Shown here: positions 21,325 to 46,551 of the stretch, piece by piece
Layout of the letters: the number at the start of each line of letters is the position of its first letter
How positions within the stretch are numbered: position 1 is the stretch's first letter
Assembly: GCF_029504735.1 (NCBI RefSeq)
Contig: NZ_JAQFIP010000003.1
Location: forward strand, 1-64,000
Source: Ereboglobus sp. PH5-10
GTDB taxonomy: Bacteria > Verrucomicrobiota > Verrucomicrobiia > Opitutales > Opitutaceae
DNA: 64,000 nt
Direction: 5' to 3'
The notes under the pieces: generated by a model
What the model was told of the DNA's origin: nothing
Database searches by the model: none
Seen by the model: the letters and a program-made list of their open reading frames with translations, nothing else
Program-made: the position numbers and the translations under genes

Positions 21325-21351
21325 GGGTAGGGCGGTTTCGCCGAAACCGCC
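21325..21351 (+). repeat. REP palindrome, left flank of RAYT 1
   Basis: GTAG at 21327-21330 heads a near-perfect hairpin (ggcggtttcg / cgaaaccgcc). The whole 27 bp is the exact reverse complement of 21978-22004, on the other side of the transposase gene. It lies 20 bp past the clpB stop. Confidence 0.9.
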
Positions 21352-21444
21352 GTCTGCACCATATTCCGCCATCATCCGGCCAAAAACCTTTTGCCATCAT
21401 TGGCAAAACCACATGCTTTGGCGGCTGGCAAAGACCGGCGCATC

Positions 21445-22011
21445 ATGCACACGCAAAACCCCACTCCTCCCGACGGCGCGCTCGGCGAGCGCGCCCTACC
21501 CTATGCGTCGCTCCCAAAACGCAAAAAACTCCCGCACGCCATCCCCTCATGGGTCAAGGACGGGGAAACTTACTTCATCACAATCAACTGCACCCCGCGC
21601 GGACTGAACCAGCTTGCCACCCCGGACATCGCGCAAACCGTGGAAAACAGTTTCATTCATCGCCAGCGCATCTGCCAATGGTGGATACAACTTCTCGTGC
21701 TCATGCCGGATCACTTGCACGGACTGGTTTCATTCAGCAGGACGGTCTCCATGCGTCGCACGGTTTTCGACTGGAAACGCTATCTTGCCCGGCACAAAAA
21801 CATCCAGTGGCAGCGGGATTTTTTCGATCACCGCATACGCGATCATGCATCACTGGCTGAAAAATGGCATTACATCCAAAACAATCCCTTGCGCAAAAAC
21901 CTCTGCGCGACACCCGGCGAGTGGCCGTATCAATGGCACAATGGACAGCCTCGCGCGGCGGTTTCGGTTTCGGAAGCGGCGGTTTCGGCGAAACCGCCCT
22001 ACCCTCGTTAA
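21445..22011 (+). CDS. REP-associated tyrosine transposase (RAYT 1, Y1_Tnp fold)
   Basis: A 188-residue protein of the IS200/REP transposase class. The HUH motif is in MPDHLHGLVSF, preceded by the family's WVKDGETYFITINCTPRG strand. The nucleophile region is WHYIQNNPLRKNL, with Tyr followed by NP. RAYTs are single-copy domesticated relatives of IS200 that cut and join REP hairpins. It is flanked by perfect 27-bp inverted REPs, and its last residues (AVSAKPPYPR) are encoded by the right-hand REP, with the stop just beyond. An in-frame start at 21391 is possible; 21445 is the first ATG outside the repeat zone. Confidence 0.85.
   Translation: MHTQNPTPPDGALGERALPYASLPKRKKLPHAIPSWVKDGETYFITINCTPRGLNQLATPDIAQTVENSFIHRQRICQWWIQLLVLMPDHLHGLVSFSRTVSMRRTVFDWKRYLARHKNIQWQRDFFDHRIRDHASLAEKWHYIQNNPLRKNLCATPGEWPYQWHNGQPRAAVSVSEAAVSAKPPYPR
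21978..22004 (-). repeat. REP palindrome, right flank of RAYT 1
   Basis: Exact reverse complement of 21325-21351, with its GTAG head on the minus strand at 21999-22002. A degenerate partial copy lies just before it (21955-21975). The element is inside the coding sequence of RAYT 1 and forms its C-terminal residues. Confidence 0.9.
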
Positions 22012-23283: not shown

Positions 23284-25125
23284 GTGCAGCCCGACGAACT
23301 CCAGATCACGCTCCAGACGACTTTCGGTTATCCCGATTTTCGTCCGCTCCAGCGCGAAATCATCGAGGCGTCGCTCGCGGGTCGCGACGTGTTTGCGCTG
23401 CTCCCCACCGGCGGCGGCAAATCCATGTGCTACCAGTTGCCCGCGCTGCACCGCACCGGCCTGACGGTCGTCGTCTCGCCGCTCATCGCGTTGATGAAGG
23501 ACCAGGTTGACCAGCTCCAGTCGGCGGGCGTGGCGGCCACGTTCTTGAATTCCTCGCTCGGCGAACGCGAATCGCGCGCGCGCCTCGCCGGCCTGCACCG
23601 CGGCGAATGGCGGCTGCTTTACGTCGCGCCCGAACGCCTCATGCTCGACAGTTGGGCGGAAAACCTCCGCGCATGGAACGTCGCCGCGCTCGCCATCGAC
23701 GAGGCGCATTGCATCTCCGAATGGGGCCACGACTTCCGCCCCGAATACCGCCAGCTCGCGCAACTCCGCGAGCTGCTGCCCGACATCCCCGTGATGGCGC
23801 TCACCGCCACCGCCACCGAGCGCGTGCGCGCCGACATCGTCAAGCACCTCAAGCTCCGCGACCCGCAAATCTACGTCGCCAGTTTCAACCGCCCCAATCT
23901 CACCTATCGCGTCCTGCCCAAGGACGGCCCGCTCGCGCAAATCATCGCCTTCGTGAAAAAACGCGAGGACGAAAGCGGCATCGTTTACTGCGCCACGCGC
24001 GCCACCGCCGAGCGCGTCGCCGAGTCGCTCTCCTCGCGCGGCTACTCCGCCCGTCCCTACCACGCCGGGCTCACCAACAAGGAGCGCGCCGAAAACCAGG
24101 AGCTTTTCCTCCGCGACGAAACCAAGATCATTTGCGCCACCATCGCCTTCGGCATGGGCATCAACAAACCCAACGTCCGCTGGGTCATCCACTACGACCT
24201 GCCGAAAAACATCGAGGGTTATTATCAGGAAACGGGCCGCGCCGGGCGCGACGGGCTCCCCGGCGACTGCCTCCTGCTCTTCAGCGGGGGCGACGCCGCG
24301 AAACAAACGCACTTCATCGACGAGATGACCGACGAGCACGAGCGCAACGTCGCGCGCACGCAACTGCGCCTCATGCTCCACTACGCGGAAAACGCCTCGT
24401 GCCGCCGCCGCGAACTCCTCGGCTACTTCGGCGAAACCTTCCCGATCGACAATTGCGGCGCGTGTGACAACTGCCTCGAGCCGCGCGAAACATTCGACGG
24501 CACCATCGCCGCGCAAAAATTCCTCTCCTGCGTCTATCGCGTGCGCCAGGCCAGCCGCTTCGGCGTCGGCCTCAACCACATCGTCGAGGTGCTCACCGGC
24601 GCCGACACCGACAAAATCCGCCGCTGGGGCCACGACAAAGTCAGCACCTACGGCATCGGCTCCGAAATGACGCGCCCGCAATGGGCCGCCGTCGGACGCG
24701 AACTCATGCGCATGGGCTGCCTCGCGCAAGCCGAGGGCGAATTCCCCACGCTCGAACTCACCGCCGAGGGCGTTGACCTGCTCCGCTCGCGCCGTCCCGT
24801 GATGCTCACCAAGCCGATCGCGCTTCCGAAGGTGAAAAAAGTCATCCCGCGCCAGGGCAGCATCGAGTGCGACGAAATCCTCTTCGCGCGCCTGCGCGAA
24901 CTCCGCAAGACACTCGCCGACGAACGCCGCGTGCCCGCCTACGTGATCTTCGGCGACGCCACGCTCCGCCAGCTCGCCCGCGAATACCCGACGCGCCTCG
25001 CCGACATGCACGACATCTTCGGCATGGGCGAAAAAAAGCGCGCCGAGTTCGGCGAAACCTTCGCAGCTACCATCGCGGAATTTTTGGAAAACAACCCGCG
25101 CATGAAGTTTGATAATAACTCGTAG
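23284..25125 (+). CDS. recQ: ATP-dependent DNA helicase RecQ
   Basis: A 3'-5' helicase for recombination and fork repair. With the GTG start at 23284 it is 613 residues, matching E. coli RecQ. FGYPDFRPLQ precedes Walker A LPTGGGKS (residues ~40-47). DEAH lies near residue 139, followed by helicase motifs including HAGL and GMGINKPNVRWVIHYDLPKN...QETGRAGRDG. The zinc-binding CRRRELL...CGACDNC is near 373-398, the winged helix next, and a C-terminal HRDC domain after ~530. ATG 23215 is an alternative start that would add repeat-encoded residues. The TAG stop is contributed by the GTAG head of the REP at 25122. Confidence 0.95.
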   Translation: MQPDELQITLQTTFGYPDFRPLQREIIEASLAGRDVFALLPTGGGKSMCYQLPALHRTGLTVVVSPLIALMKDQVDQLQSAGVAATFLNSSLGERESRARLAGLHRGEWRLLYVAPERLMLDSWAENLRAWNVAALAIDEAHCISEWGHDFRPEYRQLAQLRELLPDIPVMALTATATERVRADIVKHLKLRDPQIYVASFNRPNLTYRVLPKDGPLAQIIAFVKKREDESGIVYCATRATAERVAESLSSRGYSARPYHAGLTNKERAENQELFLRDETKIICATIAFGMGINKPNVRWVIHYDLPKNIEGYYQETGRAGRDGLPGDCLLLFSGGDAAKQTHFIDEMTDEHERNVARTQLRLMLHYAENASCRRRELLGYFGETFPIDNCGACDNCLEPRETFDGTIAAQKFLSCVYRVRQASRFGVGLNHIVEVLTGADTDKIRRWGHDKVSTYGIGSEMTRPQWAAVGRELMRMGCLAQAEGEFPTLELTAEGVDLLRSRRPVMLTKPIALPKVKKVIPRQGSIECDEILFARLRELRKTLADERRVPAYVIFGDATLRQLAREYPTRLADMHDIFGMGEKKRAEFGETFAATIAEFLENNPRMKFDNNS

Positions 25126-25222
25126 GGGCGCACCTTGCGTGCGCCCTCGTGCTCGAGGACTTTGTGGATGCGCTCGCAAACAGTTCTACGAACACCAGGG
25201 CGCACGCAAGGTGCGCCCCTAC
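25122..25222. repeat. 101-bp paired REP (BIME-like), copy 1
   Basis: Two inverted GTAG-headed hairpins (GTAGGGGCGCACC...) are separated by a ~50-bp conserved spacer. GTAG at 25122-25125 provides the recQ stop TAG (25123-25125). The opposite-strand GTAG at 25219-25222 provides the TAG stop of RAYT 2. A near-identical copy lies at 25816-25916, so direct copies flank the transposase. Confidence 0.95.
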
Positions 25223-25776
25223 GAATCGCGGTCGGCGACTTTTTCCAAATCACCGAGCCACTCAACGGGCGGCGAACCGGACGGGCCGAGGTGCTCCACA
25301 AAATCGAAACACCTCGGCTCTGGCATCCATGTGCCATCCCATCCGCCATCGCCGCATTCAATCAAGCCCGCACGATATGGATTCATATAAATGTATCGGG
25401 CATAGTCCTCGTTCATCTCATCCGGGCGCAAACGATGTTCCCAAAAATCGCGCTGCCAGCCATCACCACGCGTCGCGTTGGCTCGCGACAGGTTTTTCCA
25501 TCGCGCCACACAACGCCCGACATTCGCATACACGCCGACATCCACTCCAAGCTCGAACAGCACATGCACATGATCAGGCATGCAAGTGACCGCCAGCAGC
25601 ATCCACCTGCGCGCATTATGTCCGCTTTTCAAAACCTCGATCATGTGTGCACGGCACAAAGCATCATTGAGCCATGGTCGGCGACCTTCGGTCGCAAATG
25701 TCACAAAATAGCGCGCGCCGGAAATTGATATTCGCCCGACATGCAGTTGCGAGGTTCGACGCGAGTAGAACGGCAT
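25219..25776 (-). CDS. REP-associated tyrosine transposase (RAYT 2)
   Basis: 185 residues. The N-terminal RISISGARYFVTFATEGRRPW is the typical RAYT start. The HUH motif is in MPDHVHVLFEL, followed by FWEHRLRPDE and the catalytic-Tyr stretch YARYIYMNPYRAGL. It is clearly a different RAYT lineage from the one at 21445, with few identities outside the motifs. It is bracketed by two near-identical 101-bp paired REPs whose hairpins are presumably its substrates. The gene runs convergently into recQ and shares the REP at 25122-25222, from which it takes its stop codon. The start ATG 25776 lies about 40 bp from the second REP. Confidence 0.9.
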   Translation of the reverse strand: MPFYSRRTSQLHVGRISISGARYFVTFATEGRRPWLNDALCRAHMIEVLKSGHNARRWMLLAVTCMPDHVHVLFELGVDVGVYANVGRCVARWKNLSRANATRGDGWQRDFWEHRLRPDEMNEDYARYIYMNPYRAGLIECGDGGWDGTWMPEPRCFDFVEHLGPSGSPPVEWLGDLEKVADRDS

Positions 25777-25815: not shown

Positions 25816-25916
25816 GTAGGGGCGCACCTCGCGTGCGCCCTAGTGCTCGAGGACTTTGTGGATACGCTCGCAAACAGTTCTACGAACACCAGGGCGCACG
25901 CAAGGTGCGCCCCTAC
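25816..25916. repeat. 101-bp paired REP (BIME-like), copy 2
   Basis: Same structure as 25122-25222 in the same orientation, with only about three differences visible (cctcgcg for ccttgcg, gccctag for gccctcg, ggatacg for ggatgcg). The spacer is conserved as well as the hairpins, so the pair behaves as one unit. It ends four bases before the trpS stop codon. Confidence 0.95.
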
Positions 25917-45024: not shown

Positions 45025-46551
45025 TCAATACACCTTCTCTTCGAGCAGCGCGAAGAGCTCGGCCTCGGTGATGCGGGTTTGCTGCATCGTGTCGCGGTCG
45101 CGAAGGGTGAAGGTGCCGTCCTTTTCGATTGTGTCGAAGTCGATCGTCACGCACCAGGGCGTGCCGATTTCGTCCTGGCGACGGTAGCGGCGGCCGATGG
45201 CGCCGGACTCGTCGTAGAAGGCGGTGTATTTGCGTTTGATCTTCTTGTAGAGTTCCTGCGCGCGACCGACGAGCGCCTCCTTGTTTTTGAGGAGCGGGAG
45301 CACCGCCACCTTCACCGGCGCGATGCGCGGCGAGAGGCGAAGCACGATGCGCGTCTCGGTGTTGCCCTTTTCATCGGTGACCTGTTCCTCGGCGTAGGCG
45401 GCGCAGAGCGCGGCGAGGAAAATGCGGTCGGTGCCCACGGCGGGCTCGATCACGTGCGGCACGAATTTCTTTTTCGTGGCCTCGTCGAAAATTTCCTGCG
45501 GCTTGCCGCTGGCCTCGGCGTGTTGCGTGAGGTCGTAGTTGCCGCGCGCGGCGATGCCCCAGAGTTCCTGCACGCCGAAGGGATACTTGAACATGATGTC
45601 CGTCGTGCCTTTTGAGTAGAACGAAAGCTTGGCCTTCGGGTGGTCGTAGAGCGAGAGGTGCGAATCGGGCAGGCCGATGGAAATGAGCCACTGGCGGCAC
45701 CATTCAATCCAGTCCTTGTGGCACTGCGCCCAGTCGGCGTCCTCGTGGATGAAGTATTCCATCTCCATCTGCTCAAACTCGCGCGAGCGGAAGATGAAGT
45801 TGCGCGGCGTGATTTCGTTGCGAAACGACTTGCCGACTTGCGCGATGCCGAAGGGCAGTTTCACGCGGCCGGTGTCCACGACGTTCTTAAAATCGACGAA
45901 CATGCCCTGCGCGGTTTCGGGGCGCAGGTAGGCGACGGCGGACGCGTCGCGGAGCGCGCCGACGTAGGTTTCGAACATCATGTTGAACGCGCGCGGCGGC
46001 GTGAGGCTGCCGGGCTCGCCGGTGGCGGGCGACGGGATGAGCGGAATCTCGTCGGGCTGCGCCTCGGTGAGGTCCTTGGGTTGCACGGGCGCGAGCTCGC
46101 CCTGGATCGCCTTCTTGCGCTTGAGCGTTTCGGCGGCGGACTGAAGCTCGGCGGCGGTGTTTTCGCCCTCGAGCGCGGAAACGTAGCCGACCGTCTTGCC
46201 ATCGACGACGACGGGCGAGAAAAAGAGCTGGTCGGCGCGGTAGCGTTGTTTGCTGGCCTTGCAATCGACGAGCGGGTCGGTGAAGCCGGCGATGTGGCCC
46301 GAGGCCTCCCAAACTTTCGGGTGCATGATGATCGACGACTCGATGCCGACGATGTCGTCGCGGCGGCGCACCATATCGTTCCACCAGCAGTCGCGGATGT
46401 TTTTCTTCATCTCGGAGCCGAGCGGGCCGTAGTCAAAAAAGCCGTTGAGGCCGCCGTAGATTTCGGACGACTGGAAAATGAAACCGCGGCGCTTGCAGAG
46501 CGCGACAATGGTTTCCATGGAGACTTCGGCGGGTGTGGACTGCGTTGACAT
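45025..46551 (-). CDS. glyS: Glycyl-tRNA synthetase (alpha2 type)
   Basis: Class II aminoacyl-tRNA synthetase of 508 residues, the homodimeric bacterial/archaeal form. Seen: [23 protein letters not shown], motif 1 region, [28 protein letters not shown], motif 2 [28 protein letters not shown], motif 3 [16 protein letters not shown], and a C-terminal anticodon-binding domain. ATG 46551 gives the canonical start; the frame runs on to 46695 without family-like sequence. Confidence 0.96.

Follow-up and report, generated by a model that had tools for sequence, protein, structure and literature searches.

Does this locus of an Opitutaceae genome hold two separate sets of RAYT and REP, and what should be made of a REP that encodes the end of the enzyme beside it? 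The features that bear on these questions lie in the window, by which we mean the whole stretch of DNA analysed (64,000 nt of Ereboglobus sp. PH5-10):

21325 to 21351, plus strand: left copy of REP1, with GTAG head, 9-bp arms GGCGGTTTC/GAAACCGCC and loop GCC.
21445 to 22011, plus strand: RAYT1 gene, 188 aa; the HUH motif is HLH at 21712-21720 and the catalytic Tyr codon is at 21871-21873.
21475 to 21501, minus strand: third REP, with head and loop as in REP1; its stem (GCGCTC) differs, and it is read in frame within the N-terminal part of RAYT1.
21978 to 22004, minus strand: right copy of REP1, which encodes the C-terminal peptide of RAYT1.
25122 to 25222, no strand assigned: REP2 dimer of 101 bp with its heads outward (25122-25145 on the plus and 25199-25222 on the minus strand).
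25219 to 25776, minus strand: RAYT2 gene, 185 aa; 86.1 bits to NF047646 and matched to 4er8 by sequence.
25816 to 25916, no strand assigned: REP2 dimer upstream of RAYT2, identical to the dimer at 25122-25222 at 98/101 positions.

We compared both proteins with known families and structures. The NCBIfam model NF047646 (REP-associated tyrosine transposase; cut-off 80) gave 86.1 bits for RAYT2 and 80.1 bits for RAYT1, which barely exceeds the threshold, and the Pfam model Y1_Tnp scored RAYT1 below its cut-off (20.7 vs 23). Both RAYTs matched E. coli TnpAREP (PDB 4ER8, group 2) by sequence. This protein is the best PDB match of RAYT1 in sequence as well as in fold (4er8_A, Foldseek E 4.6e-9, for a model with pLDDT >90 across the core). 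The best start of RAYT1 is the ATG at 21445; the columns of the HLH pair and the Tyr are invariant or conserved in 19 homologues, and the corresponding RAYT1 codons were confirmed. As required of a RAYT, RAYT1 lies between REPs with a GT[AG]G head, and further copies of these are scattered through the genome.

RAYT1 and RAYT2 share 30% identity, are separated by a branch with 99% support in the RAYT tree and lie 3.2 kb apart, which agrees with the earlier claim of two different RAYT lineages within less than 4 kb. With their REPs, the two genes probably represent adjacent REPtrons that belong to different lineages. The sister genome G002 has kept both RAYTs at 99% identity with the same flanking REPs, and the 3.2-kb proximity is one ancestral arrangement common to both genomes. 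Between the two sister species the RAYT1 core differs by four synonymous and three non-synonymous changes, too few to judge selection.

RAYT1 is bracketed by a perfect inverted pair of 28 nt (21325-21352 and 21977-22004; 100% complementary, gap 624 nt), one base longer than the 27 reported in the earlier note. With the base composition of the window, ~3e-9 inverted pairs of 28 bp are expected by chance. Each copy reads GGGTAGGGCGGTTTCGCCGAAACCGCC, so that the GTAG heads described for both repeats were found again, and the head is followed by a perfect 9-bp hairpin with loop GCC. GGGTAGGGCGGTTTCG occurs without mismatch at only two sites of the window, the two REP1 copies. The RAYT1 ORF (end 22011) finishes with ...AVSAKPPYPR*, and the right REP1 copy (21978-22004) is translated in frame; a REP does encode this C-terminus, as had been proposed. 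The GTAG-headed third REP, GTAGGGCGCGCTCGCCGAGCGCGCC (minus strand, 21475-21499), lies within the N-terminal coding part of RAYT1. It is not present as such in G002, where the matching stretch differs and has 24 nt more, with the frame kept. By pattern counts, the 3.58-Mb genome holds few copies of the REP1 palindrome (6 exact, 16 near), whereas the other REP, REP2, has 58 sites there, many of them paired at 76-77 bp.

RAYT2 is located between the two 101-bp REP2 dimers, and its stop codon (25221-25219) is the TAG in the GTAG head at 25222. The recQ gene stops (25123-25125) on the TAG in the opposite GTAG head of the same dimer (25122). A single REP2 dimer (25122-25222) thus gives recQ and RAYT2, which converge on it, their stop codons, one from each head.

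We investigated whether REP class tracks RAYT lineage in the source's family, the Opitutaceae, for which 150 genomes provided 115 distinct RAYT genes. Most of these RAYTs were flanked by REPs on both sides. Placed on the RAYT tree, the flanking REP class (head plus loop) required 17 changes as opposed to a mean of 56.1 after shuffling, and none of 200 shuffles was as low; we assigned the class labels ourselves by visual inspection of loop and head, and close relatives inflate clustering in this test. Loops were mostly CTTG or CTCG in the RAYT2 lineage and 3 nt long (GCC or GCT) in the RAYT1 lineage; the 29-row clade containing RAYT1 has a support of just 85%. Apart from GTAG branches, a 27-row branch of the same family had GTGG-headed REPs almost throughout. 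Since REP class follows the RAYT tree, the pairing of enzyme and REP is supported at the level of lineages, and is not strict by genome.

The identical REP1 palindrome also flanks a RAYT of just 49% identity in another genus (G064), so pairing is by class and not by exact palindrome. Stems vary even inside one locus, as seen for the third REP at 21475 and REP1. Of the two paired enzyme/substrate sets that the earlier note had envisaged, the agreement of class with lineage therefore stands, and one palindrome per RAYT does not. The same holds for the check proposed there, namely that each repeat should track its own RAYT: class did so across the 115 genes, but presence and absence by genome were loosely coupled. 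REP1-type matches and REP2 each occurred in 13 of the 150 genomes. Both REP families in genomes that lack both RAYTs had been named as refuting evidence, and two genomes partly fit this. Nine REP2 copies occur in G017 (97% complete), where nothing matched NF047646; RAYT loss is a simple reason for this. G013 has REP1-like repeats, mostly with another loop (TCTCC), and no match of the RAYT1 lineage.

To describe the gene ends, we surveyed 135 genes with a 3' REP, taken from the family set and from a second set of named loci of Verrucomicrobiota and relatives. The median distance from the end of the core to the 3' REP was 27 bp. For REPs with their GTAG on the coding strand and without a preceding stop, the TAG was in frame in 29 of 33 cases (1/3 expected; p 1e-10), and in 17/21 after clustering at 60% identity (p 1e-5). 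Reverse-oriented REPs at RAYT ends were often read through, in frame 0 (GGPSGPALP-type peptides) or frame 2 (AVSAKPPY-type and others), and the peptides of these two frames are unrelated. Among the 27 reverse-oriented REPs without a preceding stop, frame 0 was used 17 times, frame 2 ten times and the Arg-rich frame 1 never; some of the 27 contain the stop inside the REP.

We compared RAYT1 C-termini among homologues, as the earlier note had advised, and found that the REP-encoded tail is not conserved: in RAYT homologues the stop precedes the REP (many of them), falls within it, coincides with its TAG or comes only after it. Residues 173-188 of RAYT1 are disordered in the model (pLDDT <50). 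Between RAYT1 and the 99% identical gene of G002, a 6-bp in-frame indel (two residues) lies in the tail just before the REP. Because the peptides are unrelated, many genes stop before the REP, the tail is disordered in the model and the sister species carries an indel there, we read the REP-encoded tail as tolerated, not selected; we saw no sign of selection.

Other reading frames continue further. At L304 and L294 (from 1501), the RAYT ORF passes in frame through the 3' REP into a cytochrome-c-like (CAECHG) ORF, the start of which is lipoprotein-like. At L260, from a Kiritimatiellae MAG, the RAYT frame runs on through several tandem REPs downstream of 1944.

REP-made stops are not confined to RAYTs. 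A location at gene ends is a known rule for REPs, and TAG stops from GTAG REPs in general were described by Di Nocera 2013 (PMC3733652). Among dispersed REPs beside non-RAYT genes in G000 and G002, the TAG of the GTAG was the stop codon in 9/46 cases, and in 9/10 where no stop came earlier. The idea that TAG stops from GTAG are special to RAYTs is weakened, as dispersed REPs of the same genomes do likewise. Such stops were nevertheless commoner at RAYTs (29/55 vs 9/46; Fisher p 0.0009, with differing distance windows and with relatives counted apart).

Our observations concern gene identity, REP anatomy, the pairing of class and lineage, REP-made ends and the presence or absence of REPs in the sister species. 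We consider it probable (about 0.8) that the locus consists of two REPtrons in which each RAYT recognizes its own REP class, that REPs settle at the coding end, and that the tail is a tolerated by-product. By analogy, each RAYT would be an HUH single-strand DNA nuclease that recognizes REPs of its class by their GTAG head, their hairpin and their loop. Like the TnpAREP studied before (PMC8266576), it most probably nicks and rejoins single-stranded REP hairpins of that class, thereby spreading REP monomers or dimers, which would be moved as non-autonomous elements. For the TnpAREP of S. maltophilia, a G as first loop base is essential (PMC8266576). The pairing found here fits this, and in both survey sets G dominates as the first base of 3-nt loops. 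REPs lie immediately beside the coding end of RAYT genes. When the closest REP on the 3' side carries GTAG in the coding direction, and the frame has not been stopped earlier, the TAG usually becomes the stop codon, as in RAYT2. A REP in the opposite orientation, as in RAYT1, offers no stop in the frame used, and read-through adds a short disordered tail, probably a tolerated by-product of the REP's position and not a conserved part of the enzyme.

Alternatively, the tail may be functional, a regulatory C-terminus written by the enzyme's own substrate, so that gain, loss or flip of the REP would retune the enzyme. We consider this unlikely. The C-terminal tail of E. coli TnpAREP touches the GTAG bases, and the protein is more active once its last 13 residues are removed (PMC8266576), but it belongs to a different RAYT group. 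REP read-through is recurrent in many homologues, and the complete lack of the Arg-rich peptide (0/27) would also fit a functional tail; on the other hand, the peptides of the two frames have nothing in common, many homologues lack a tail, and that of RAYT1 is predicted to be disordered and carries the sister-species indel. Somewhat less likely still is that a REP adjoining the gene switches the end of the enzyme between a GTAG stop and a tail, depending on how the REP is oriented, and so changes REP processing, a form of self-regulation in cis.

We give even less weight, and about equally little, to two explanations in which the RAYT and its REPs are related in another way. The perfect inverted pair bracketing a single gene could suggest an insertion-sequence-like RAYT cassette that moves as a whole and has the REP1 copies as its terminal inverted repeats. 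However, only one copy of RAYT1 exists in its genome, and its position is shared with G002; the second RAYT1-like gene there has 45% identity and no REP was found at it, and many REPs have no adjoining RAYT. The IS200/IS605 model NF033573 gave 14.3 bits with a cut-off of 55, and together with its single copy this led us to reject RAYT1 as an IS200/IS605 insertion sequence. REPs could also be general gene-end elements (3' hairpins for mRNA stability or termination) that adjoin RAYTs incidentally. The non-RAYT genes of G000 and G002 that end on REPs and the known preference for gene ends agree with this, but incidental placement predicts neither that REP class follows the RAYT tree nor that REPs lie on both sides of most surveyed RAYTs. 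We therefore retain the two REPtrons with a tolerated tail as our main reading.

Arrangements of this kind are known. The REPtrons that Di Nocera 2013 (PMC3733652) described in Opitutus terrae and other bacteria also have GTAG REPs flanking RAYT genes, are repeat-specific, with several REP families and matching REPtrons in one genome, and include REPs that overlap RAYT 5' or 3' ends; GTAG provides TAG stops there too, and REPs inside genes were reported as well, most of them in O. terrae. In contrast to those REPtrons, two lineages lie 3.2 kb apart here, and RAYT1 holds REPs of two stems, in its N-terminal and C-terminal coding parts. E. coli TnpAREP differs in that the palindromes of its REPs are imperfect and bulged, and no description has its C-terminal tail encoded by a REP.

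The group 3 TnpAREP of Stenotrophomonas maltophilia (REPtron Sm, PMC8266576) resembles RAYT1 in the perfect palindrome directly after GTAG, the 3-nt loop with G first and the DHLH motif, but has YI[VI]ANP and 8-bp arms where RAYT1 has YIQNNP and 9-bp arms. The perfect REP1 palindrome, with 9-bp arms and loop GCC, is of the kind expected for group 3/subclass 2.5. RAYT1 itself has the DHLH and WQ of subclass 2.5 (DH[LF]H, WQ, YI[VI]ANP), and we did not place it there because of the mismatching Tyr motif, even though its REP resembles REPSm of group 3. In RAYT1 relatives the Tyr motif is mostly YIRxNP. RAYTs of subclass 2.4 likewise carry in-frame REPs inside their own genes and a YIxNNP motif (PMC6006769). 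Their insertions lie between HuH and Tyr and their HuH motif is NH[IFV]H, whereas RAYT1 has REPs at both ends and DHLH, and we rejected this assignment too.

We also compared REP sites between genomes. At least two REP dimers are lacking at orthologous sites of G002. Where G000:C1 has a REP2 dimer (45071-45170), G002 lacks it and has ~12 bp instead of ~142, and no REP in G002 corresponds to the REP1/REP1' dimer at G000:C16; the junctions of these dimers are not precise. The two missing dimers fit recent gain or loss, the direction of which cannot be told. A search for a clean site empty of either REPtron yielded none: the gene order around DAHP synthase and trpS differed in G051, and no DAHP synthase match was found in G080. 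A peptide-pattern scan of the named genomes with RAYT1 alone gave no matches, but alignment did. G080, which belongs to the genus of the window, has 75 RAYT-model matches (e.g. L208), mostly to the second half of the model, in open frames of ~230-460 aa. They represent an amplified HUH-type protein family that does not reach this level in the sisters.

The locus is a clean example of an arrangement already described, and the extra tail of RAYT1 looks like a harmless by-product. RAYT gene ends written by REPs are an instance of a general habit of REPs, which argues against a meaning in the C-terminal peptide; if the end were switchable after all, the substrate would regulate its own enzyme in cis. 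That the head and loop class of REPs follows RAYT phylogeny is the pattern expected if loop recognition sets specificity. Such recognition has so far been measured in a few proteins, and our survey set offers natural enzyme/REP pairs for swap experiments.
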